From Saccharomonospora cyanea NA-134 (GTDB lineage: Bacteria; Actinomycetota; Actinomycetes; Mycobacteriales; Pseudonocardiaceae), in assembly GCF_000244975.1 (NCBI RefSeq), contig NZ_CM001440.1:4510325-4574324 (forward strand): a stretch of DNA of 64,000 nucleotides. The letters run 5' to 3'. Made by a program: the position numbers and the translations under genes. Below, piece by piece: positions 4,752 to 55,538 of this stretch (position 1 is the stretch's first letter; the number at the start of each line of letters is the position of its first letter). The notes under the pieces were generated by a model. It was given only the letters and a program-made list of their open reading frames with translations, made no database searches and was not told the DNA's origin.

Positions 4752-5095
4752 TGGACATCACCGCCGAGGACGTCGACAAGGCTTGGTTCCCGCCCGCGCC
4801 GTGGGGCACCCGCGGTTACAACCGCATGCAGGTCGACGCCTTCCTCAGCCGCGTCGCGGCCACACTGGAGGGTCGCGACACCGTGACGGCGGCGGACGTG
4901 CACAAGGTCGCGTTCACGCTGTGCCCGTTCGCCCGCCGGACGGTCGGCTACGACCCCGCCGCGGTGGACTCGTTCCTGCGGCTGGTGGAGGCGGCGCTCG
5001 CGGCGCGGGAATCCGCCGCGATGTCGACGCCCTACCTCGCACCCGCCCTCGACCACAGCCACGCCCGCGTGCCGCTGTGGCGCAAGTTGGTCTGA
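4751..5095 (+). CDS. Short protein with two DivIVA-type repeats, paralogue of its neighbour
   Basis: A 114-aa protein with two repeat units: WGTRGYNRMQVDAFLSRVAA and, more diverged, RRTVGYDPAAVDSFLRLVEA. The start ATG at 4751 uses the last base of the upstream stop (TGATG), so translation is coupled. It resembles the upstream gene throughout and probably arose by duplication. The C-terminal 25 residues (STPYLAPALDHSH...) are unique. It has no coiled coil, TM segment or signal peptide. It ends 5 bp before the convergent acyl-AMP ligase gene. Confidence 0.72.
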   Translation: MDITAEDVDKAWFPPAPWGTRGYNRMQVDAFLSRVAATLEGRDTVTAADVHKVAFTLCPFARRTVGYDPAAVDSFLRLVEAALAARESAAMSTPYLAPALDHSHARVPLWRKLV

Positions 5096-5100
5096 GACGG

Positions 5101-6783
5101 TCAGGCCCGGGAGTCGATGAGTTCCCGGTACTGCGTCGCGGTGGCCGCGCGCTTCACCTTGCCCGACGGGGTCTTGGGGAGACTGCCCTTCGGCAGCACC
5201 ACGACCGCGTAGGGACGAGCGTCCACGGCGTCGCGGACCCGCGCCGCGACCTCCTTCGCCAGCGCGTGCTCGGCATCGACGTCACCGGCCACAGTGGATT
5301 CGAGCACGACGGCGAACCGCTCCCGGCGCGTTCCCGCGTCGATGCGTACCGCCACGGCGTTGCCCGCTCTGACCCCGTCCACGGAACTCGCCGCGCGTTC
5401 GATGTCGGTGGGGTACACGTTGCGCCCGCCGAGGATGATGACGTCTTTCTTCCTGCCGCAGATGACGATCTGTCCGTCCACGAGGTACCCGACGTCACCG
5501 GTGGGAAACCAGCCGTCGGCGTCCCTCGTGTCGAGCGGACCGTCCACGGTGAGGTATCCCGGCGACACCGCTTCGCCGCGAAGCTGGATCTCCCCGACTT
5601 CGCGCTCCGCGCGCACCGCGCCAACCTCGCCGACGATCCGGGCCTCCAGACCGGGCAACGGACGGCCGAGCACGGCGAACTGCCGAACCTCGTCGGTGCC
5701 GCGCCGAGGATCGCCCTCCGGAACGGCCACCGCACGGTCGTCGTCCTCCAGCGGCCGCGCCTCGATGACGTCCACGGTGAGGCCGGTGAACAGCGGGGCG
5801 AACGACACCGCGAGCGTGGCCTCGGCGAGGCCGTACGCCGGGAACACGCATTCGGCCGGCATGCCGAACCGCTTGCCCGCGTCGGTGAACGTGCGAACGG
5901 CGGTGGGGTCGATCGGCTCGGCGCCGTTGAGAGCGATACGCAGGCTCGACAGGTCGTACGCGTTGTCGTCGTCGACCTTGGCTAGCCTGCGGCCCACGAT
6001 GGCGTACGCGAAGTTCGGCGCTGCCGTGGTGGTCCCGCGGTACTTGCTGATCAGTTCCGGCCACACGAGCGGACCGCTGAGGAAGTCGACCGGAGTGATC
6101 TTGACGAGCTCCACGCCGAACGTCATGGGCACGGTCAGGAAGCCGACCATGCCCATGTCGTGGAACAACGGGAGCCACGACACCATGACGTCGGTGTCGA
6201 AGTCGAACTCCGCACGCTGCACCATCGCGGTGACGTTGGAGAACAGGTTGCCGTGCGTGATCTTCACGGCCTTCGGGTCCGCTGTGGACCCACTGGTGAG
6301 CTGCAGGAGCGCCAGCGCGTCCTCTCCCGTCGGGACGGGTTCGGCCAGTGGCTCGGCTTCGAGCAGAGCACCGATCGAGCGGTAGGCGATGCCGTGTTCG
6401 TCGAGAACCGGCGCGAGGCCGTCGAACGGCTCGCCGAGCGCGACGAGGGACGAACCGATCATCCGCAACACCCGGAGCGTGTCCTCGGCCCACCTCGCGA
6501 GGTCGGTGCGCGCGGTGGGCTGGTGCAGCATCGTGACGCTGCCGCCCGCGAGCCACACACCCTGCACCGTCGGCGCGATGAGCTCGGGAGAGCCGGCCAG
6601 CACCGCGACCGCACCACCGGGTTCGAGCCCAGCCTCGACGAGGCCTCCGGCGACGCGGCGAGCACGCTGGTGCACCTCGAACCACGTTCTCCGAACGGGC
6701 TCCCGGGGTTCCCCGGTGACCATCCCCCGCTCCCGGCCACCCGCGTGCGCGGTGGTGACCATCGTCTCCACGAACCGACTCAT
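5101..6783 (-). CDS. Fatty-acyl-AMP/CoA ligase (FAAL/FadD-like, ANL superfamily)
   Basis: Activates a fatty acid as acyl-adenylate. The 560-aa protein shows the phosphate loop LTSGSTADPKAVKITHGN, the adenine motif FPAYGLAEATLAVSF (the AEATL form is common in fatty-acyl-AMP ligases), GWFPTGDVGYLVDGQIVICG and the C-terminal lysine motif LPKTPSGKVKR. An acyl-AMP ligase normally passes its product to a carrier protein, but no PKS, NRPS or ACP gene is nearby, so the acceptor is unknown. A TAAAGT hexamer 6 nt before the ATG suggests a leaderless transcript. CoA ligase activity cannot be excluded. Confidence 0.85.
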   Translation of the reverse strand: MSRFVETMVTTAHAGGRERGMVTGEPREPVRRTWFEVHQRARRVAGGLVEAGLEPGGAVAVLAGSPELIAPTVQGVWLAGGSVTMLHQPTARTDLARWAEDTLRVLRMIGSSLVALGEPFDGLAPVLDEHGIAYRSIGALLEAEPLAEPVPTGEDALALLQLTSGSTADPKAVKITHGNLFSNVTAMVQRAEFDFDTDVMVSWLPLFHDMGMVGFLTVPMTFGVELVKITPVDFLSGPLVWPELISKYRGTTTAAPNFAYAIVGRRLAKVDDDNAYDLSSLRIALNGAEPIDPTAVRTFTDAGKRFGMPAECVFPAYGLAEATLAVSFAPLFTGLTVDVIEARPLEDDDRAVAVPEGDPRRGTDEVRQFAVLGRPLPGLEARIVGEVGAVRAEREVGEIQLRGEAVSPGYLTVDGPLDTRDADGWFPTGDVGYLVDGQIVICGRKKDVIILGGRNVYPTDIERAASSVDGVRAGNAVAVRIDAGTRRERFAVVLESTVAGDVDAEHALAKEVAARVRDAVDARPYAVVVLPKGSLPKTPSGKVKRAATATQYRELIDSRA

Positions 6784-6789
6784 GAGTAA

Positions 6790-6795
6790 ACTTTA
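6790..6795 (-). promoter_or_regulatory. Candidate -10 of the acyl-AMP ligase gene (leaderless)
   Basis: TAAAGT on the minus strand, 6 nt before the ATG at 6783, with no Shine-Dalgarno between them. Confidence 0.4.
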
Positions 6796-6808
6796 ACCTC
6801 GCCCGGTT

Positions 6809-8596
<1,788 letters not shown>

Positions 8597-8626
8597 CCGC
8601 CTGTTACGTCCTTCCGTCGTTTCGCG

Positions 8627-9553
8627 TCACTCGTCGCACACGCGGGCGCCCGGCACGGGTCCGTGTGCCACGCGCACCGTGCGGCACACTCCCGCGCCCG
8701 CGAGTTCGGCGGCCACCTTGAGTGCCGAGTCGCCGTCGGAGCACAGGAACGCGCACGTCGGGCCGGACCCGGAGACCACGCCGGCGAGCGCGCCCGCGCT
8801 CACCCCGGCACGCAACGTGCGGCGCAGACCCGGCCGCAGTGACACGGCCGCCGCCTGGAGGTCATTGCCGAGCAGCAGGGCGAGGCGGCGTGGATCGCCG
8901 GAGGCCAGCGCCTCCAGCAACGCCTCCGGTGAGCCGACCCTCGGCGGGTCGCCTGCCTGGCGGAGGCGGTCGAGCTCCCCGTACACCTTCGGGGTCGACA
9001 GCCCTCGCTGGTCGAACGCGAGCACCCAGTGGAAGGTGTGCCGCGACAGCACCGGCACGAGCTGCTCACCCCGACCGGTGCCCAGGGCCGTGCCGCCGTA
9101 CAGGGCGAACGGTACGTCACTGCCGAGCGTCGCGGCCACCTCCGCCAGCTCGTCGCGGTGCAGGTCGAGGTTCCACAGCGTGGAGCACGCGAGCAGCGCG
9201 GCGGCGGCGTCGGCGCTGCCGCCCGCCATGCCTCCGGCCACGGGGATACCCTTGCGGATCACCACGCGTACCCGGTTGGCCTCGTCCGGTTTGCCGACGT
9301 GTTCGGCCAGCGCGCGGACCGCGCGCACAGCCAGGTTGCCGTCGTCGGTGGGCACCAGCCTGGCCCCCTCGCCGGAGACCTCGATCCCGGCCTCGGGGCT
9401 CGCGAACACCGTGACCTCGTCGGTCAGCGACAACGCGTGGAACACGGTCGTGAGATCGTGGTAGCCGTCGTCGCGCAGATCACCGACCGACAGATGCAGG
9501 TTGATCTTCGACGGCACTCGCACGGTCACGGGCGGCGGTACGACGGCAAGCAC
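8627..9553 (-). CDS. ispE: 4-diphosphocytidyl-2-C-methyl-D-erythritol kinase
   Basis: ATP-dependent kinase of the MEP isoprenoid pathway, GHMP family. It has the N-terminal [20 protein letters not shown], the ATP-binding GHMP loop [19 protein letters not shown] (about residues 95-115) and the C-terminal [10 protein letters not shown] chose the GTG at 9553: a TAGGCT hexamer at 9561-9566 lies 7 nt before it, whereas the GTG at 9559 would be only 1 nt from that hexamer. In many actinobacteria ispE follows rsmA; here the ABC ATPase gene sits between them. Confidence 0.94.
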
Positions 9554-9560
9554 GCCCACC

Positions 9561-9566
9561 AGCCTA
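9561..9566 (-). promoter_or_regulatory. Candidate -10 of ispE (leaderless)
   Basis: TAGGCT on the minus strand, 7 nt before the GTG at 9553. Confidence 0.45.
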
Positions 9567-9589
9567 CTTGGCCGCCCGGAACCGCTGGT

Positions 9590-10594
9590 TCAGGCGGCGA
9601 CGTCGCGCAGGCCGTACATCGGCGTACTCACGTGCGCGCCGCGTTCGGCGATCCACGCCAGTGCGGCGTCGGCCCGCTGGCCCTCCACGCCGAGGCGGAA
9701 GCGAGCCACCGGAGTGTCACCGAGCCGGGTCAGGCCGCCACCGATGGTGGTGAAGTCGACTTCGAAGCGGGCAGCGGCCTCGGGCAGCAGGGCTCCCACG
9801 GCGGCGAAACCGACGAGGACGACGTCCACGGCGCGGTCGTAGGCGGACAGGTGTGTCCTCGGGGTGTCGACCCGGGGCAGCAGGGCCTCCGCGATCGGGC
9901 TTCCGGGCTTGCCGAGGAGGCTCAGCAGCGTGCCGGACTCGACGACCCTGCCCCGGTCGAGCAGCGCGACCTCGTCGCAGACCCGGCGGGCGATGTCGGC
10001 GTCCCGGGAGGTGACGATGACGGTGGCGCCCAGTTCGGCCCTGGCCCGGTCGAGGACGGACAACACCGCGGCGGACTCCTCGCCACCGACACCGTGGGTG
10101 GGGTCGTCGGCCAGCAACACCGACGGCGCCGTGGCCAGTGCCCGTGCGAGGGCCACGCGACGCTGCTGCCCCGCGGTGAGTTCCGACGGCAGCCGTGCGC
10201 CCGCCCGCGAGAGCCCGATGACGTCGAGCAACGTTCCGACCCGGCTGCGCCTGCGGTCGGGGTCCACGCCCATCCGCTCCAGCGGGGCGGCGATGTTGCC
10301 CGCGACGGTGCGCTCCGGCCGCAACGCGGGGTCCACCACCGCGACCTGCCGTTGCGCGCCCCACAGCTTGCGGCCCGCGAGCCTGCTGGTGTCCATGCCG
10401 TCGTAGCGCACCGTGCCCCTGTCGGGCCGCTCCCGCAGCGCGACGCAGCGTGCCAGCGTCGTCTTACCGGCCTGCGCCGGTCCGACGATGCCGAAGAGTG
10501 AACCCGCGTTCACTGTGAGGTTGACATCGCGCAGCGCGACCACGGGGGAGTCGGCGGAGGTGAACGACTTACTGACGTTCTCGACGGTGATCAC
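9590..10594 (-). CDS. MetN-like ABC ATPase with NIL-type C-terminal domain, degenerate catalytic motifs
   Basis: The ABC domain (about residues 3-235) is followed by a roughly 75-residue C-terminal region resembling the methionine-sensing NIL/ACT domain of MetN (FEVDFTTIGGGLTRLGDTPV...). Walker A is intact (GPAQAGKTT), but the signature is LTAGQQRR, Walker B ends LLADDPT (Asp where the catalytic Glu normally sits), and the switch region reads IVTSRDAD where MetN has ITHEMD, so the H-loop His is Ser. ATP hydrolysis is therefore doubtful. No MetI permease or MetQ binding protein is adjacent. A SAM-type riboswitch lies upstream, which ties the gene to methionine/SAM status. The start is the GTG at 10594, 5 nt after ggag; a TTG lies one codon earlier. 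Confidence 0.8.
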   Translation of the reverse strand: MITVENVSKSFTSADSPVVALRDVNLTVNAGSLFGIVGPAQAGKTTLARCVALRERPDRGTVRYDGMDTSRLAGRKLWGAQRQVAVVDPALRPERTVAGNIAAPLERMGVDPDRRRSRVGTLLDVIGLSRAGARLPSELTAGQQRRVALARALATAPSVLLADDPTHGVGGEESAAVLSVLDRARAELGATVIVTSRDADIARRVCDEVALLDRGRVVESGTLLSLLGKPGSPIAEALLPRVDTPRTHLSAYDRAVDVVLVGFAAVGALLPEAAARFEVDFTTIGGGLTRLGDTPVARFRLGVEGQRADAALAWIAERGAHVSTPMYGLRDVAA

Positions 10595-10697
10595 CAAAGC
10601 TCCAGGCAGCTCGAAAACGGGCGTCCAGCACAGGACGTCCGAAAGTAGGCAGACGGCTAAGAACCGACGTTGGTCGAAAGGAAGGGCGCTCAGCGGG

Positions 10698-10727
10698 AAA
10701 CGGTGTGGCTACAACAAGCACACACCG
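10698..10727 (-). terminator. Hairpin between riboswitch and ABC ATPase gene (possible expression platform)
   Basis: On the minus strand CGGTGTG (10721-10727) pairs with CACACCG (10701-10707) around a 13-nt loop and is followed by TTT. It lies between the riboswitch aptamer and the gene, where an attenuator would be expected. The T-run is short, so termination is uncertain. Confidence 0.4.
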
Positions 10728-10788
10728 TGCGACGGCCTTGATCGACGACTCGACGCTGCGTCAGGAGCGGCGTGCGGTACACAGGTCC

Positions 10789-10874
10789 TCCATCGGTCCT
10801 GGCGGTAGCACCTTCCCCATCGGGGCGGTTGCTGCGACGTCTCGGAGCCAGGTCTCTCGGTCGCTCGGGATGGA
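10789..10874 (-). ncRNA. SAM-type riboswitch (S-box-related actinobacterial variant)
   Basis: Read on the minus strand, the core runs CGAGAGACCTGGCTC, then GACGTCGCAGCAACC, then a small CCCC-GAT-GGGG hairpin, then AAGGTGCTACC. This parallels the S-box pattern GAGGGA..GGCCC..GCAACC..GGTGCTA. A closing stem TCCATC/GATGGA pairs 10869-10874 with 10789-10794, and GCGAC/GTCGC forms an inner stem. I think it belongs to the SAM-I/IV-variant group of actinobacteria; the class is from memory and needs a covariance search. It precedes the MetN-like ATPase by about 195 bp, a fitting target. Confidence 0.75.
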
Positions 10875-10929
10875 TGCCCCCACAGTACATCGAACCCACC
10901 ACGCGGTTGGCAAGCGTGGCTGGGCGAGA

Positions 10930-11787
10930 TCACACTCTCGCCGCAACCCGGGCGAGTTCGGCGAACATCTCGACCGTGAGTCGTTCACCTCGGGTGGCGG
11001 GATCGATGCCCGCGCGAGTGAGAATCTCGGCGGCACGGTCGGCCGACCCCGCCCACGAGGCCAGGGCGGCACGCAGGGTCTTGCGGCGTTGCGCGAAGGC
11101 GGTGTCGACGAGCTCGAACACGGTGTCGCGCTCGACGTCCTCGGGTGGACTCGACCGCTCGAACGCGACCAGCGACGAGTCGACGTTCGGCACCGGCCAG
11201 AACACCGACCGGGACACCGCCGCGACCTTGCGCGCCCGCCCGTACCACGCGAGTTTCACGCTGGGGACGCCGTAGACGCGGCTGCCGGGTGACGCGGCCA
11301 TGCGATCGGCCACCTCGGTCTGGACCATGACGAGCGCGTGGCGCAGCGACGGCAGCTCGGCGAGCAGGTGCAGCACGACGGGCACGGCCACGTTGTACGG
11401 CAGGTTCGCCACCAGCGCCGCGGGCGCGGTGGGCAACTCGTCCGCGCGCAGCCGCAGGGCGTCGCGTTCGAGCACGGTGAGCCGCGCGGCACCGTCGGGC
11501 GCGTGCTCGGCGACGGTGGTGGGCAGTCTCGCGGCCAGCACGGGATCGATCTCCACCGCCAGCACACGGGCACCGGCGTCCAACAACCCGAGAGTCAGGG
11601 AACCGAGGCCGGGGCCGACCTCGAGCACCGGGTCCCCCGGCGCCACGTCGGCGAGGTGCACGATGCGACGCACGGTGTTGGCGTCGTGCACGAAGTTCTG
11701 GCCCAGCTTCTTCGTCGGCCGCAGCCCCAGCGCCGAGGCCAACCGGCGGATCTCGGCGGCTCCCAGCAGGCCCGGTGTGTCGCTCAC
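10930..11787 (-). CDS. rsmA: 16S rRNA (adenine1518-N6/adenine1519-N6)-dimethyltransferase
   Basis: Dimethylates two adjacent adenines in the 3' hairpin of 16S rRNA (KsgA). The 285-aa protein has [10 protein letters not shown] near residue 26, the SAM motif [21 protein letters not shown] and the catalytic [11 protein letters not shown] (NLPY). A TAGGCT hexamer lies 6 nt before the start, again without a Shine-Dalgarno. It is downstream of rpfB on the same strand (43 bp), a conserved actinobacterial arrangement (tatD-rpfB-rsmA-ispE). Confidence 0.96.
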
Positions 11788-11793
11788 CGGGCC

Positions 11794-11799
11794 AGCCTA
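11794..11799 (-). promoter_or_regulatory. Candidate -10 of rsmA (leaderless)
   Basis: TAGGCT on the minus strand, 6 nt before the start codon at 11787. Confidence 0.45.
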
Positions 11800-11830
11800 A
11801 AGTCCTCGCCGGACAGCGGGTCCGCGGGCT

Positions 11831-13249
11831 CTACTGCGGCAGCCCGAGCTGTGAGGAGCAGTGCGGCCAGGCACCGTAGCCGCCACGGGAGTCCCGCAGC
11901 TTGGTGGCGATCGCGATCTGCTGCTCGCGCGTGGCCTGGTGTGGGTACGCCGCGTACTGGGTGCCGCCGTAGGCGTCCCAGGTCTGCTTGTTGAACTGGA
12001 GGCCGCCGTAGTAGCCGTTGCCGGTGTTGATGGACCAGTTCCCGGTCGACTCGCACTGCGCGAGCGCGTCCCAGACGGCCCCGTCGCTGATGGGCGGGAC
12101 GTCCGGCTCCTTGGTCCCTACCCGGACGATCTTCTTCTCGGCCTTCTTGACGACCTCGACCGACAGCTCCTCGCTGTCGATCACCTTGCCGTTCTTCTTC
12201 GTCACGCGGTAGGTGACGAGCTTCTCGCCCGCCTTGCCCTCGTCCTCGACGACCTCCTTGCCCTTCTCCAGGGTGTCGTCGTAGATGGTCTCGACCTCGG
12301 GCTCGATGACCTCGGTCTTCTTCACCACCGACACGCCGGTGCGGCTGACGTGCACCTCGGCGCCGTCGGTGAGCTTGAACTCCGCGCCCTCTTCGATCTT
12401 GTCCTGCTTGCCGAGGCCGAGGTTCAGCTCGGCGAGCAGCTCCTCCGCGGTGACGGCGTTGGTGGTGACCTCACGGGGCTTCTCGCCACCGTCGTAGAGG
12501 GTCACGGTCTTCTCGGTCTTGACCTCCAGGCGCATGCCGTCGAGCGGCACCTCACCCGACAGCGGCGCGGAGAACCAGGTGCCGCCGGTGTTCAGGTGGT
12601 CCAGCCCGAGCTGGCTCAGCGCCTCGCGCACCGTGGTGGCCCGGACCCAGGACTCGCGGGACTCACCGTCGACCACGAGGGTGAGCTGACGGCCGCGTTC
12701 GAGCTTGATGACCCCGCCGTCACCGACCGGCGCCTGCGGGGAGGGCGAGAGGGCGTCGTGCGCGCCGACGCTGATCCCGGCGTCCTCCAACACCTCGCCG
12801 ACGGTGTCGCCGTAGCTGCGGATGGTCTGCTTCTCGCCGTCGACGTCGACCGTGACGCTCTTGTTCATCGCGAGCGCCGCGGCACCACCGCCGGTGAGGG
12901 TGATCATGACCGCGAGGACGGTGCCCCGCAGGAAGCGCTTCTTCCACGTCTTGACGGCGCCGACGAAACCGTCCTCGGCGTCCGGCTCGGCCGGCTCCTG
13001 AGGTTCGTCCGCCTTCTCCGTCGGCAACACGATCGGCGGAAGCATCGTGGTCTCGGCGTTGATGAGCCTGATGAGCTCGTCGACGTCGACGCCCGCTTCC
13101 GCCATGAGGGTCTCGGCGTCGGGACCGAGAGCGGTCAGCACGTCGTGGGGTGTGACTTCCGGCTCGGGCGAGAAGTCGAGGTTCTCGGCTTCGCTCGGCC
13201 AGTCGAGCAGGGCCGTGGAGGCAGCCGTATGCCCGTCTCTATCAGTCAC
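11831..13249 (-). CDS. rpfB: Resuscitation-promoting factor RpfB
   Basis: Secreted, membrane-anchored muralytic enzyme that cleaves peptidoglycan and promotes growth and resuscitation. An N-terminal cytoplasmic, acidic stretch of about 95 residues precedes one TM segment (GTVLAVMITLTGGGAAALAM). Three DUF348 repeats follow (MNKSVTVDVDGEKQTIRSYG begins the first), then a G5 domain and the C-terminal lysozyme-like Rpf domain, with the catalytic Glu in LAQCESTGNWSINTGNGYYG. I chose the GTG at 13249 because gaaggg is 9 nt upstream; a GTG at 13276 would add nine residues. The long cytoplasmic N-terminus is unusual beside the short one in mycobacteria. Confidence 0.94.
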   Translation of the reverse strand: MTDRDGHTAASTALLDWPSEAENLDFSPEPEVTPHDVLTALGPDAETLMAEAGVDVDELIRLINAETTMLPPIVLPTEKADEPQEPAEPDAEDGFVGAVKTWKKRFLRGTVLAVMITLTGGGAAALAMNKSVTVDVDGEKQTIRSYGDTVGEVLEDAGISVGAHDALSPSPQAPVGDGGVIKLERGRQLTLVVDGESRESWVRATTVREALSQLGLDHLNTGGTWFSAPLSGEVPLDGMRLEVKTEKTVTLYDGGEKPREVTTNAVTAEELLAELNLGLGKQDKIEEGAEFKLTDGAEVHVSRTGVSVVKKTEVIEPEVETIYDDTLEKGKEVVEDEGKAGEKLVTYRVTKKNGKVIDSEELSVEVVKKAEKKIVRVGTKEPDVPPISDGAVWDALAQCESTGNWSINTGNGYYGGLQFNKQTWDAYGGTQYAAYPHQATREQQIAIATKLRDSRGGYGAWPHCSSQLGLPQ

Positions 13250-13464
13250 AGGGTCGATCCCTTCACGTAAGTACACCGACTCCCGCAGTCAGCGCCGCCC
13301 TATCGCGCCCCGCAGGACGCTCTCCCCGACGTACACCGACGTGACTGTGGGCCAGGCGGGTGGCGGTCCGTGGGTCCCATCGGATCACCACCCGACACGG
13401 TCACGGGACCATAACGAGTGCCGGGGGGTTGCGCAAATACCCCCGGGGCAACTAGTGATCTTCC

Positions 13465-14322
13465 TCACGGCACGCTCGGTGAACTCACAGGGCCGTTCGG
13501 GTGAGAGATCCGGAAGCCGAATACCCTCTCCGCGTTACGCCGCGCTGCCTCGGCCACGGCCTCCACAGGCTGGTCCCGCAGCTCGGCGAGCCCCGCCACC
13601 GTGTACGCCGCGCAGTAGGGCTCGTTGGGCCTGCCGCGGAACGGGTGCGGGGTGAGGAACGGGGCGTCGGTCTCGACCAGCAGCTGCTCGTCGGGCACCA
13701 GCCGGGCCGCCTCCCGCAGCGCGTGCGCGTTGCGAAACGTCACCGTGCCCGCGAACGACAGCACGTAGCCCGCGTCGACACACCGCCTCGCCACGTCGGC
13801 GTCCCCGGAGAAGCAGTGGAAGACCACCGTCTCCGGAGCGCCCTCGGCCTCCAGGATCGACAGCACGTCGTCGTGCGCCTCACGATCGTGGATCATGAGC
13901 GGCTTGCCCACGCGCTTGGCGAGGTCGATGTGCCAGCGGAACGCCTCCTGCTGGGCCTCCGGCGGCGAGTAGTCCCAGTAGTAGTCCAGGCCCGTCTCGC
14001 CCACGGCGACCACGTGCTCGGCCGCCGCGAGACGCTCCAGTTCGGCCCTCTGCTCGGCTGTGAAGTCCTTCGTGCGGGTCGGGTGCAGGGCGACGGCGCC
14101 GTGGAGCCGGTCGTCCCACGCCGACGCCTCGGCGACCCAACGCGCCGAGGCGAGGTCGTCGGCGACGGTGACGACGGCGGCGATCCCGGCCGCCGACGCC
14201 CGGTCGAGCGCCGCCCGCACCTGTTCGGGTGTCGTCGCGCCGCACGCGTCGAGGTGGGTGTGCGAGTCGACCGCCGGTACCGGAAGCCGCTCCGGTACCG
14301 GCGGCGGTTCCCGACGACTCAT
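13465..14322 (-). CDS. tatD: TatD-family metal-dependent deoxyribonuclease
   Basis: A 285-aa TIM-barrel hydrolase. Metal ligands are visible in order: DSHTHLD (about residues 17-23), the Glu of [13 protein letters not shown], the His of [10 protein letters not shown], the His of VVFHCFSGD and the Asp of LVETDAPFL. Family members have 3'-5' DNase activity in DNA repair. The ATG at 14322 overlaps the metG stop by 4 bp, so metG-tatD is translationally coupled. A longer in-frame extension is only the metG shadow. Confidence 0.93.
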
Positions 14323-16118
14323 CCGTTCACCTGGATCGGGGCCCATTCCGGCCCCGTCTCGGCCAGCTTCGGGTCGATCTTGGCGAACAGCGGGGTCGGT
14401 TTGGCCAGCGGCCTGCCCACCTCGATCGGCCTGGATTCCCAGCGAGCCTGCTCGGCGTCGTAGCCGCCGGTCAGGATGGGGTTCACCCGGTCGGGCACGT
14501 CGAGGTCGGCGACCTCCTTCAGCTCCGGCTGCGCCGCCCACACCCCGGTGCCGCCCAGCGCCTCGTGCACCTTCTGCGCCGCGTGCGGCAGGAACGGCGT
14601 GAGCAGCGTGTTCGCGTCCGACACCACCTGCAGCGCCGTGTGCAGCACCGTGTCACGACGCTCCGGGTCGTCCTTCAGCTTCCACGGCTGCTGGTCGGAC
14701 AGGTACTTGTTGGCCGCCGACACCACGCGCATGGCCTCCTGGGCGGCCTGCCGGAAGCGCGACCGGCTCAGGTGCGCGCCCACCGTGTCGAACGCCGCGC
14801 GGGCCTGCGCCTTGAGGTCCTCGTCGGCCTGGGTCGGGGTGTTCGGCCTCGGGACACCGCCGTTGTTCTTGTGCGCCATCGAGATCGAACGGTTGACGAG
14901 GTTGCCCCACTCGTTGGCGAGTTCGAAGTTGACGCGGCGGGTGAACTCGTCCCACGTGAAGTCGGTGTCCTGCGTCTCAGGTCCCGCGACGCTGATGAAG
15001 TACCGCAGCGTGTCGGGGCCGAACTCTCGCAGGAAGTCGTGCACGTAGATCACCGTGCCGCGCGAGGTGGAGAACTTCGAGCCGCTCATGGTGAGGAACT
15101 CGCTCGACACGATCTCGTCGGGCAGCCGCAGCGTCCCGTACGGGCCCGGTTCGCCGCCCTTGTCCCCCTCGCCGTTGTGGCCGAGCAGCAGCGCGGGCCA
15201 GATCTGGGCGTGGAACGTGATGTTGTCCTTGCCCATGAAGTAGTAGCTGCGGGCGTCGGGGTTGTTCCACCACTGCTGCCACGCGTTCGCGTCGCCGGTA
15301 CGACGGGCCCACTCGACGCTCGCGGAGAAGTAGCCGATCACCGCGTCGAACCAGACGTAGAACCGCTTGAGCGGCTGGTCGCGCCAGCCGTCGAGAGGGA
15401 TCCGCACGCCCCAGTCGAGGTCGCGGGTGATGGGCCGGGGCCGCATGTCGTCGACGAGGTTGCGGGTGAAGTTGAGGACGTTGGGCCGCCAGTCGGTCTT
15501 GGTGGACAGCCACTTGCCCAGCGTCTCGGTGAACGCGGGCAGGTCGAGGAACAGGTGTTCGGTCTCGACGAACTTCGGCTTCTCGCCGTTGATGCGCGAG
15601 CGCGGGTTGCGCAGCTCGGCGGCGTCGAGCTGGTTGCCGCAGTTGTCGCACTGGTCGCCGCGCGCGCCGTCGTAGCCGCAGATGGGACACGTGCCCTCGA
15701 TGTAGCGGTCGGGCAGCGTGCGACCCGTCGACGGGCTGATGGCGCCCGTCGTGGTCTTGGGGATGACGTAGCCGTTGCGGTGCAGCGCGAGGAAGATCTG
15801 CTGCGTGACCTCGGCGTGGTTGCCGGTGCTGGTGCGCGTGAAGAGGTCGTAGGACAGCCCGAGGCCGCGCAGGTCCTCGGTGATCTGGCGGGTGTACTTG
15901 TCGGCGGCCTGCTGCGGGGTCAGCCCCTCCTTGTCGGCCTGCACCTGGATCGGCGTGCCGTGTTCGTCGGTACCCGACACCATGAGCACCCTGTTGCCGG
16001 CCATTCGCTGGTAGCGGGAGAAGACGTCGGACGGGACGCCGAAGCCGGACACGTGGCCGATGTGGCGGGGGCCGTTGGCATAGGGCCAGGCCACCGCGGT
16101 CAACACTGGGGTGCTCAT
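14319..16118 (-). CDS. metG: Methionyl-tRNA synthetase
   Basis: Class I aminoacyl-tRNA synthetase of 599 aa. It has the HIGH motif in [14 protein letters not shown], a knuckle [18 protein letters not shown] (zinc ligands, about residues 141-160), the tRNA-anticodon residues in the C-terminal helical domain, and [10 protein letters not shown] in the KMSKS position, a form also seen in other actinobacterial MetRS. The start is ATG with a TAGGCT hexamer 8 nt upstream, so probably leaderless. It heads the metG-tatD unit. Confidence 0.97.
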
Positions 16119-16126
16119 ACCTGGTT

Positions 16127-16132
16127 AGCCTA
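16127..16132 (-). promoter_or_regulatory. Candidate -10 of metG (leaderless)
   Basis: TAGGCT on the minus strand, 8 nt before the ATG at 16118. Confidence 0.45.
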
Positions 16133-16191
16133 CGGACCTCCTCCGGCGTTTCGTGCGCGAGGGACACGTGTGGAAGTGGAGGCGTCGCGAC

Positions 16192-16791
16192 ATGTCGGCT
16201 GTCCGGTTACTGGTGCTCGGCGTGGTGCGCATGCACGGTCGCGCGCACGGCTACGTCGTGCGCCGCGAGTTGTTGTCCTGGTCGGCCGACACGTGGGCCA
16301 ACGTGCAGCCGGGGTCGATCTACCACGCGCTGAAGAAGATGAACTCGGAGAACCTCCTCGCCCGCGTGGACACCGGCGACGAGGGCCGGCCCGACAAGGT
16401 GACCTACGAGCTGACCGCGGACGGCGAGCGTTACTTCGACCAGCAACTGGCGAAGATGCTGGCCGAGGTCCGCCGGGATCCCAGCGCCAACTACGCGTTC
16501 GCCGCGGCGGTGGCGTTCCTTCCGACCCTGACCAGGGACCGCGCGATCAGCCTTCTGGAGTACCGCCTCACCCAGCTCACGGGCGGGCTCGCGAACCTCG
16601 ACGTCGCTCTCGACCATGGCACCGACTGGGGGCAACCCCAGCACGTCAGCGCCCTCTACCGGCTCTGGCGCGCACACGTGGAGACCGACATCGGGTGGAC
16701 GGAGGACCTGTTGAGCCGTCTCCGAGCGGGCGAGTACGTGATGGCCGACGACGCGGGTCACTCGTTCGGAAGTCCCGACCCACCGAAGTAA
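16192..16791 (+). CDS. PadR-family transcriptional regulator
   Basis: A 199-aa protein with an N-terminal winged helix (LLVLGVVRMHGRAHGYVVRR, then GSIYHALKKMNSENLLAR), typical of PadR, and a C-terminal helical dimerization region. I chose the ATG at 16192, about 10 nt after ggagg; a GTG at 16153 would add 13 residues. Its stop codon lies inside the first of two TCAAATTTGA palindromes that precede the ABC exporter genes. It is thus very likely a local repressor of the exporter that responds to the exported compound. Confidence 0.9.
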   Translation: MSAVRLLVLGVVRMHGRAHGYVVRRELLSWSADTWANVQPGSIYHALKKMNSENLLARVDTGDEGRPDKVTYELTADGERYFDQQLAKMLAEVRRDPSANYAFAAAVAFLPTLTRDRAISLLEYRLTQLTGGLANLDVALDHGTDWGQPQHVSALYRLWRAHVETDIGWTEDLLSRLRAGEYVMADDAGHSFGSPDPPK

Positions 16792-16805
16792 TCAAATTTG
16801 ACTAA
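16788..16805. promoter_or_regulatory. PadR operator, copy 1
   Basis: GTAATCAAATTTGACTAA has a TCAAATTTGA core at 16792-16801. It overlaps the padR stop codon and nearly matches copy 2, 53 bp away. Confidence 0.7.
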
Positions 16806-16840
16806 TGTCAGGTCCTGCGAGAGAGTACCCGCGTCCACGG

Positions 16841-16858
16841 GTAGTCAAATTTGACTAC
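16841..16858. promoter_or_regulatory. PadR operator, copy 2
   Basis: GTAGTCAAATTTGACTAC is a perfect 18-bp palindrome ending 13 bp before the ABC ATPase start, so a bound repressor would block initiation. Its centre is 53 bp (about five helical turns) from copy 1. Confidence 0.75.
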
Positions 16859-16871
16859 GGAAGGGGTACGC

Positions 16872-17867
16872 ATGATCAAGGCACGCGGCCTTGCCCGGCG
16901 GTTCTCCGCCAGGGGCCGCACGGTCGACGCCGTCCGGGGCGTCGACATCGACGTCGACCAGGGGGAACTCGTCGGCTTCCTCGGCCCCAACGGAGCCGGG
17001 AAGACGACCACACTGCGCATGCTCACCACGCTGCTGCGCCCGACGGCGGGCGAGGCCGAGGTGGCGGGATGCGACCTGCTGCGAGACCCGCTCGGAGTGC
17101 GCAAGCGCATCGGCTACGTCGCCCAAGGCGGAGGCACACTGCCCGAGTGCAGGGTGAACGAGGAGCTCGAACTGCAGGGCAGGCTGTACGGGCTGTCGAA
17201 GGCCGACACCGCCCGCCGCGCCGCCGCGCTGGCCGAGCAGCTCGACCTGTCCGGTCTGGACGGCCGGCTCACCAAGACGCTGTCAGGGGGACAGCGACGC
17301 AGGCTGGACATCGCACTCGGGCTCATCCACAACCCCCCGCTGGTCTTTCTCGACGAGCCCACCACCGGGCTCGACCCGCAGAGCCGGGCGAACCTGTGGG
17401 ACCACATCGACCACCTGCACGCCGAGCAGGGCGTGACGGTGTTCCTCACGACCCACTACCTCGACGAGGCGGACGCCCTGTGCGACCGCATCCTCGTCAT
17501 CGACGGAGGCCGGATCGTCGCCGAGGGCACTCCCGACGAGCTCAAGGCCCGCGTCTCGGGCGACCGGGTGGAGATCGGCTTCGACCACACCGGCGAGCAG
17601 GCCGCCGAGGCCGCGTCGCTGGTCGGCAAGATCGACGGCGCGCACGAGGTGAGCGTGACCGGCGACCTCGTGCGGTTCCGGGTGCCGCGCGGGGACGTGG
17701 TGCTGCCCGAACTGCTGCGCGCGTTCGACGCCCGGGGCGTGGCGATGACCTCCATGCAGGTACAGCGGCCCACGCTCGACGACGTGTTCCTCACCATGAC
17801 GGGCCGCAGCCTGCGCGAGGCCCACACAGCCCCGCCCGGCCCCGAGGAGGTCTCCGATGTGGCGTGA
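16872..17867 (+). CDS. ABC exporter ATP-binding protein (DrrA-like)
   Basis: A 331-aa ATPase of the drug/antibiotic exporter class. It has Walker A GPNGAGKTTT, Q-loop YVAQGG, signature LSGGQRRRLDIA, Walker B LVFLDEPTTGLD and H-loop TTHYLDEA. The C-terminal extension of about 90 residues (DHTGEQAAEAAS...TLDDVFLTMTGRS) is the DrrA-type tail. The ATG at 16872 follows ggaaggggt. It overlaps the permease gene by 11 bp. A PadR operator lies just upstream. Confidence 0.92.
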   Translation: MIKARGLARRFSARGRTVDAVRGVDIDVDQGELVGFLGPNGAGKTTTLRMLTTLLRPTAGEAEVAGCDLLRDPLGVRKRIGYVAQGGGTLPECRVNEELELQGRLYGLSKADTARRAAALAEQLDLSGLDGRLTKTLSGGQRRRLDIALGLIHNPPLVFLDEPTTGLDPQSRANLWDHIDHLHAEQGVTVFLTTHYLDEADALCDRILVIDGGRIVAEGTPDELKARVSGDRVEIGFDHTGEQAAEAASLVGKIDGAHEVSVTGDLVRFRVPRGDVVLPELLRAFDARGVAMTSMQVQRPTLDDVFLTMTGRSLREAHTAPPGPEEVSDVA

Positions 17868-40430: not shown

Positions 40431-40503
40431 TGGAGCTGAGGGGAATCGAACCCCTGACCTTCTCGATGCGAACGAGACGCGCTACCAACTGCGCTACAGC
40501 CCC
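40431..40503 (-). tRNA. tRNA-Ala(CGC)
   Basis: 73 nt folds to a full cloverleaf. Acceptor GGGGCTG/CAGCTCC contains the G3:U70 pair that is the alanine identity element. The anticodon stem is TCTCG/CGAGA, loop TTCGCAT, anticodon CGC (codon GCG), T-loop TTCGATT. Discriminator A73 is present and CCA is not encoded. Confidence 0.95.
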
Positions 40504-55465: not shown

Positions 55466-55538
55466 GCCCTCGTAGCTCAGGGGATAGAGCACCGCTCTCC
55501 TAAAGCGGGTGTCGGAGGTTCGAATCCTCCCGGGGGCG
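55466..55538 (+). tRNA. tRNA-Arg(CCT)
   Basis: 73 nt folds to a cloverleaf. Acceptor GCCCTCG/CGGGGGC, D arm GCTC/GAGC, anticodon stem CCGCT/AGCGG with loop CTCCTAA, anticodon CCT (codon AGG), T arm GGAGG/CCTCC, loop TTCGAAT. CCA is not encoded. Its 3' end lies 33 bp from the integrase gene stop, so it is the integration site of the element. Confidence 0.95.

Follow-up and report, generated by a model that had tools for sequence, protein, structure and literature searches.

A SAM-I aptamer and a cysteine-codon leader ORF in series upstream of an orphan MetN-derived ATPase gene in Saccharomonospora cyanea

Introduction

SAM-I riboswitches, cysteine leaders and structured RNAs that carry the ribosome-binding site of an upstream ORF (uORF) in their P1 stem are all known. 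The last type is represented by the odc1 (uORF-25-1) motif of alpha-proteobacteria; according to the accessible part of its description, the right shoulder of P1 contains the ribosome-binding site of a uORF that is short and highly conserved, and a separate uORF with Cys codons precedes cysS without a riboswitch (PMC8632094). In Sinorhizobium, a SAM-II riboswitch in the metA leader is described, in the available excerpt, to sequester the Shine-Dalgarno sequence, translation beginning 74 nt downstream (PMC9373788). For S. lividans, the accessible text reports a SAM-I riboswitch before threonine biosynthesis genes as well as metL, a leader before metNIQ that encodes a peptide with Cys and Met codons on a leaderless transcript (PMC8079986). 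Leaders of cys operons, as given in the available portion of Seliverstov et al. (2005), are short ORFs that have their Cys codons close to the end, lie before cysteine genes and have no conserved terminator; for the mycobacterial leaders, polypyrimidine and Rho were suggested in a prediction which the authors called weak (PMC1262725).

Here, we analysed a stretch of 64,000 nt from Saccharomonospora cyanea NA-134 (the window), in which a SAM-I aptamer precedes a gene for a MetN-like ATPase. Like other SAM-I (S-box, RF00162) riboswitches, the aptamer matches its model over the full length and has a P1 stem that adjoins a ribosome-binding site, as is also the case before a thrC-like gene of the same genome; unlike in usual SAM-I riboswitches, the site that would be gated belongs to a leader ORF with cysteine codons and not to a structural gene. 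This leader shares with those of Seliverstov et al., as far as the available text goes, the short ORF, the late Cys codons, the lack of a conserved terminator and a pyrimidine-rich follow-on (PMC1262725). In contrast, odc1 has an unknown ligand and an 11-residue uORF of unknown role, and is found in other bacteria (PMC8632094). The SAM-II metA leader belongs to another riboswitch class, and its accessible description mentions no cysteine leader (PMC9373788). Both metL and the window leader precede genes of the methionine importer type, but their sequences are unrelated and the available text on metL mentions no riboswitch (PMC8079986). In the open-access literature, covered by titles and openings of abstracts and with subscription papers mostly outside, we found neither the serial arrangement, in which a SAM riboswitch gates a cysteine leader, nor such an orphan MetN, the gene of which has survived the loss of its operon and stayed under the control that it had there.

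Results

Ortholog loci and features of the leader region

Unless stated otherwise, counts refer to 72 ortholog loci (46-100% identity by tblastn), chosen non-randomly from the 239 genomes that carry the gene. They comprise the 30 best matches (L023-L052), the 22 best in genomes picked by genus (L054-L075) and 20 hand-picked loci (L084-L103); left out were L053 (a canonical metN), L076-L081 and L083 (E weaker than 1e-60) and L082 (a second copy). The 64 genomes searched for MetQ and NIL were picked likewise, non-randomly. Upstream of the ATPase gene, the following features were found in the window:

10882..10887, minus strand: TACTGT, candidate -10 element shortly before the aptamer (TAnnnT spacing in orthologs)
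10787..10876, minus strand: SAM-I (S-box) riboswitch aptamer (RF00162)
10869..10874, minus strand: P1 5' strand TCCATC (sequence, Rfam match, ortholog comparison)
10789..10794, minus strand: P1 3' strand GATGGA (sequence, Rfam match, ortholog comparison)
10786..10791, minus strand: leader Shine-Dalgarno GGAGGA, 3/6 bases inside the P1 3' strand (overlap in orthologs)
10690..10782, minus strand: unannotated 30-codon leader peptide ORF VYRTPLLTQRRVVDQGRRTVCACCSHTVSR, GTG start, TGA stop (core in 71/72 loci; pS 0.59, pN 0.17 in frame)
10711..10722, minus strand: cysteine codon cluster TGT GCT TGT TGT, of which TGT 10716-10714 is invariant in relatives (66/66 distinct cores)
10630..10689, minus strand: stretch rich in C and poor in G behind the leader stop, where Rho may load (base counts in orthologs)
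10619..10640, minus strand: stem-loop GGACGTCC..GGACGCCC upstream of the ATPase (12-sequence genus alignment by eye; folds)

The SAM-I aptamer adjoins the ribosome site of a leader ORF

That a SAM-type riboswitch lies in front of the ATPase gene had been suggested by the first-pass annotation, and the suggestion held. In an Rfam scan of the whole window, RF00162 matched 10876-10787 (-) along the whole model (1-108) with 59.8 bits (E = 2.4e-11), the gathering score being 44.4, and the 6-bp closing stem seen earlier is P1 (TCCATC 10874-10869 / GATGGA 10794-10789). SAM-IV and a SAM-I/IV variant had been named as further candidate classes; in a permissive rescan of 10560-10960, which reports the best member of a clan, neither gave a better match than SAM-I, and the only other match was to one unrelated sRNA family, below threshold (15 bits vs 37). 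Among the orthologs, the aptamer-core motifs GCAACC and GGTGC are found upstream of the ATPase in 72/72 loci, all 20 loci scanned with Rfam have aptamers above the gathering score, and P1 has 5-8 pairs in each of the 71 parsed loci; L036, the locus outside the parsed set, has an extra upstream GCAACC and an aptamer of 65.1 bits. We regard the aptamer as real with near certainty, while SAM binding and an effect on expression would follow by analogy with the SAM-I class.

SAM-I aptamers are present in 295/297 genomes of the host family, judged by eye mostly two per genome where the ATPase gene occurs. The window genome has two, one in the ATPase leader and one (79.3 bits, 5402-5535 (-) of locus L003, at 1517401-1517534 of the genome contig) directly before a gene that was read from its sequence by eye as threonine-synthase-like. 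There, the ribosome site of the thrC-like gene itself abuts P1, in direct contrast to the copy before the leader. As to a promoter, a consensus scan of 10500-11000 reported none of the sigma-70 type; TAnnnT stands 14-16 nt 5' of the P1 CCATC in 42/72 ortholog loci, compared to <1% of sampled 20-nt stretches.

The leader GGAG(GA) shares 2-5 nt with the P1 3' strand in 71/71 parsed loci, and the leader start codon follows 3-10 nt after it in 70 of these. In the first-pass annotation, the switch was assumed to act on the ATPase gene itself, whereas the ribosome site that shares bases with P1 is that of a conserved leader ORF with cysteine codons.

The leader ORF is under coding selection

A core resembling L-T-x-R-R-V-[VI]-D-x-x-R-R-T-x-x-x-C was found in 71/72 loci, the sole exception being L098, which has a leader of deviant form and metN and metI ORFs in order. 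Across 66 distinct cores, pS was 0.592 and pN 0.170 in frame (pN/pS 0.29), and the orphan loci alone gave 0.566 and 0.144, whereas pN exceeded pS in the other two frames (24 and 58 of the 66 rows being free of stops in the respective frame). Selection thus acts on the encoded peptide, and the short ORF, which is presumably translated, has a Cys codon near its stop.

Cysteine-responsive leader peptides of mycobacteria, leaderless going by the title of the work, have reportedly been described by Canestrari et al. in 2020, and we take Ms5788A (NCBIfam NF042933, a Cys-rich leader) to be the leader peptide of that study. Unlike these, the window leader has a Shine-Dalgarno sequence in a riboswitch stem, and it scores 17.9 bits against NF042933 (E 0.0018), below the cut-off of 45. 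At default E, NCBIfam returned no match for the leader; at a relaxed E of 10, 3/5 leader peptides matched NF042933, and Pfam had no match for the leader peptides. By its score the leader stays outside this family, although it may work in the same way.

The last Cys of the core is encoded by UGU in 66/66 distinct cores, while the ATPase genes that follow use it for 10/142 Cys codons and crude ORFs of the window for 32/132. Other Cys positions of the core vary, with 15 UGU and 6 UGC at position 15 and 4 UGU and 20 UGC at position 10. Searches with a profile of 34 leaders returned the leader as best match in all nine searched genomes with the ATPase gene (E 4.3e-11 or lower); of the nine leaders, six had themselves served as rows of the profile. 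Among the weaker matches are related leaders before sulfur genes, read from sequence by eye as a sulfurtransferase, SsuD-like monooxygenases, a cystine-symporter-like gene and CysK elsewhere in the class; out of 21 such matches (L113-L133), L125, L126, L127 and L130 were dropped by eye as not leader-like, and the 17 kept all have UGU at the same place. One related leader in the window genome, LLTQRRAVDLCRVRSSLC (5183439-5183498, L120), precedes a DUF4395-like gene and a rhodanese-like sulfurtransferase gene and lies at neither of the only two SAM-I matches of that genome.

A class-wide draw of 296 genomes contained 67 with a leader match, and 28 of the 29 new loci examined had a matched core (L155 did not). 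Outside the group f40, UGU was found in 17/17 cases, including one SAM-gated leader of the host family, the only one of the 28 with an aptamer core upstream; one other has an isolated GCAACC. Within f40, the core-final codon is UGC in 10/11 loci (L137-L140, L143, L144, L146, L149, L150 and L159) and UGU in L148, and UGC is not visibly rare there, accounting for 5/5 Cys codons of the next ORFs. The rule is therefore bound to lineage, and we rejected UGU as an absolute rule of the wider leader type. Members of f40 have small genomes with about 48% GC at these loci, and several of their leaders precede cysK-like genes.

Conservation extends beyond the Cys codon, as L, R, R, D and R are invariant and T, V and R at least 90% conserved in an alignment of 34 leaders. 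Nascent-chain arrest peptides depend on the identity of their residues, which would fit this conservation, and the leader might be such a peptide, sensing a small molecule in the exit tunnel instead of attenuating upon codon starvation. Against such an arrest speaks that the codon itself and not just the residue is fixed at the last Cys, which lies at the end of the core. We consider arrest unlikely as the explanation; the two modes are not exclusive, however, and both may act.

A C-rich stretch, but no conserved terminator, follows the leader

In the first 60 nt past the leader stop, C outnumbers G in 70/71 loci (mean 25 C, 14 G), compared to 18/71 loci when a 60-nt stretch 5' of the aptamer is counted, and 14/17 related leaders are also followed by a C-rich, G-poor stretch. 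Alternatively, the SAM aptamer might act directly on the ATPase gene by transcription attenuation via a downstream hairpin, the leader ORF being incidental. Many SAM-I switches outside Actinobacteria act by termination, and the window sequence has two candidate sites: the stem-loop 10640-10619, followed by GTTTTCG just before the ATPase gene, and, within the leader at 10731-10718 (-), a pair of overlapping terminator-like sites that a consensus scan reported against 0.3 expected. The stem-loop is similar across the genus, with changes in both arms and no conserved U run (12 sequences, by eye). TTTT stands just after it in the window sequence only, two others having TTTT elsewhere, and the consensus scan did not report this hairpin, so that we rejected a conserved intrinsic terminator. 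Direct attenuation also sits badly with the coding selection on the leader frame, with the overlap of P1 and leader Shine-Dalgarno in every parsed locus and with the other SAM-I aptamer of the genome, the P1 of which abuts a ribosome site as well; we hold it to be distinctly unlikely.

The terminator-like sites at 10731-10718 fall on the Cys codons of the leader, and the hairpin there is found genus-wide, not family-wide. RNAalifold detected no common structure at the Cys-codon region over 66 sequences, which led us to reject a universal hairpin as in classical attenuators; run on four subgroups, it gave three weak, differing structures and none in the fourth. Between leader and ATPase, neither a conserved terminator nor a conserved anti-Shine-Dalgarno structure was found.

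The ATPase gene is a MetN-derived orphan

The gene behind the leader and its surroundings comprise:

9590..10594 (alternative start TTG 10597), minus strand: MetN-derived orphan ABC ATPase with C-terminal NIL (Pfam ABC_tran, NIL)
9629..9829, minus strand: NIL domain, residues 257-323 counted from 10597 (PF09383, 34.3 bits, cut-off 24)
10930..11787, minus strand: upstream neighbour rsmA/ksgA (TIGR00755, 248.5 bits, cut-off 171)
8627..9559, minus strand: downstream neighbour ispE (NF002870, 475.1 bits, cut-off 286)

The ORF spans 10597-9590, or 10594-9590 when read from a GTG with GGAG 5 nt upstream. As the first-pass annotation had stated, it encodes a lone MetN-like ATPase with an NIL domain behind a SAM riboswitch: Pfam assigned ABC_tran (89.3 bits) and NIL, and reading of the ORFs of 5000-17000 revealed no adjacent permease or binding protein. 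The best solved relatives by sequence, NIL included, are MetN structures of MetNIQ (PDB 3dhw, 6cvl and 3tui), with 3dhw matching residues 3-323 at E 2.8e-49. Unlike MetN, the window protein has no MetI or MetQ encoded beside it, the arrangement of a MetNIQ operon thus being absent, it scores 171.6 bits with the MetN model TIGR02314 (cut-off 499.7), and it has lost active-site residues. Its motifs LLADDPT and VTSRD are devoid of the Walker B catalytic Glu and the H-loop His, and by alignment the Q-loop Gln is lost as well, while Walker A and the signature motif are kept. A complete metQ-metN-metI is found elsewhere in the window genome (metI by reading); no Cys/Met leader was obvious by eye before these canonical genes. 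Among the 64 genomes, NIL had no match at E <= 0.001 in two (G003, G070) and was below cut-off in G036.

The ATPase gene is flanked on its own strand by KsgA (upstream) as well as IspE (downstream) in 42/73 loci (L082 counted); in most remaining loci KsgA is present and the examined stretch contains no IspE. Further upstream on the ATPase strand of the window, a gene at 14319-16118 (-) reads by eye as methionyl-tRNA synthetase. Elsewhere in the window, two tRNA genes score above the Rfam threshold (40431-40503 (-) and 55466-55538 (+)).

Loss of partners probably preceded decay of the active site

At E <= 1e-60, the ATPase gene is present in 239/297 genomes of the host family; among 298 genomes drawn from the host order, it passed E <= 1e-70 in 51, all from the host family. 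Calling the window gene an orphan is correct in that no partners lie beside it, but the term needs a history. With a canonical MetI as tblastn query, metI was found downstream of the ATPase gene in 20/71 assessable loci, the gene there heading metN-metI-metQ (L092, with Asp and no His, was left out as 143 nt were available after the ATPase). Because the same gene heads an operon in these 20 loci, we interpret the window copy as a remnant after partner loss. In each of the 20, catalytic Glu and H-loop His are both retained. The 51 loci without adjacent metI comprise 40 with Asp and no His, nine with Glu and no His, and two with both Glu and His (L057 and L101). MetQ (PF03180) was found in 34/64 genomes and lies directly downstream of the ATPase gene in 20; among the 44 genomes without an adjacent copy, a few assemblies being incomplete, 30 have none and 14, including that of the window, have MetQ elsewhere.

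A tree was calculated by quick search without the columns of the catalytic motifs, with SH-aLRT as the sole support measure and a single long-branched MetN as root. In it, the operon state is basal, and the fewest changes are three for operon/orphan, two for His and six for Glu/Asp. On this quick tree, partners were lost three times and His twice, the latter only in loci without partners. As the operon is basal and His was lost only where partners are absent, it is likely that partners were lost first and the active site decayed afterwards, in two lineages.

One could still imagine that the ATPase drives an importer, for methionine or another substrate, together with a permease from another locus. 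Across the 72 orthologs, the Walker A Lys (70/72) and the signature Gly (70/72) and Gln (71/72) are indeed retained, and the window genome carries metI at another place. Yet the H-loop His is kept in 22/72 and the catalytic Glu in 31/72 only, and the 30 genomes devoid of any MetQ lack a binding protein of this type altogether; we find such pairing very doubtful. For the same reasons, i.e. the lost His, Gln and Glu and the absence of MetQ from 30 of the 44 genomes, the partner-swapping role raised in the first-pass annotation is not favoured.

Its other proposal, a regulatory role, fits better with the distribution of constraint. With 6 to 28 pairs in each group, median dN/dS in three orphan groups was 0.05-0.09 for NIL and 0.08-0.16 for the nucleotide-binding domain (NBD), compared to 0.15-0.18 and 0.14-0.17, respectively, in two operon groups. 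Purifying selection acts on the orphan, most strongly in NIL; with its lower dN/dS than in the operon groups, NIL is held more tightly in the orphans, and as constraint on the orphan NBD is not relaxed relative to the operon groups, the ATPase part is not simply idle. It is this constraint on NIL, which in all three groups exceeds that on the rest of the orphan, that favours regulation. A decaying relic without function would agree with the loss of catalytic motifs in two lineages, both without partners, but hardly with median dN/dS values of 0.05-0.16, with orthologs in 239 of the 297 family genomes and with the retention of aptamer and leader in orphan loci, and we regard it as barely credible.

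A second ATPase copy in genome G010 (L082) has Asp for the catalytic Glu and keeps the H-loop His; no aptamer core was found in the 715 nt examined upstream of it.

Discussion

Taken as a whole, the locus is probably a sulfur-starvation leader of two layers that drives a stranded MetN-derived protein. With SAM bound, the aptamer would close P1 and hold part of the leader Shine-Dalgarno sequence, an effect of the ligand that is expected from the SAM-I class, and the leader would stay untranslated; at low SAM, it would be translated. When charged tRNA-Cys is scarce, the ribosome would stall at the core-final UGU and either cover the C-rich RNA or keep it open, and transcription or translation could get to the ATPase gene. 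Expression of the ATPase would then need low SAM and low cysteine together. In this scheme, it is the stalling, the involvement of Rho and the direction of control that we infer.

The leader at first served a metN-metI-metQ importer, from which metI and metQ were lost in the window lineage. What was left, according to the alignments, is an ATPase without H-loop His, Q-loop Gln and catalytic Glu, in which Walker A, the signature motif and a NIL domain under constraint persist. Most likely, the orphan binds ATP and methionine with little hydrolysis and serves as a cytosolic methionine sensor or regulatory partner, although the role of the protein is the least certain part of the whole reading. 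Tentatively, and as something possible rather than probable, we suggest that a motor without permease and binding protein has turned into a stand-alone, ATP-binding, hydrolysis-poor, methionine-sensing regulator at least twice in one family, under an AND-gate of SAM riboswitch and cysteine leader.

The arrangement would place two known sulfur sensors, a SAM riboswitch and a ribosome-based cysteine sensor, in series on one leader, each amenable to testing by single mutations. In addition, the family offers a graded series, which runs from the operon via orphans with intact motifs and orphans without His to orphans without His and Glu. It illustrates how an ABC motor might become independent of transport while selection continues to act on its regulatory domain and RNA control.
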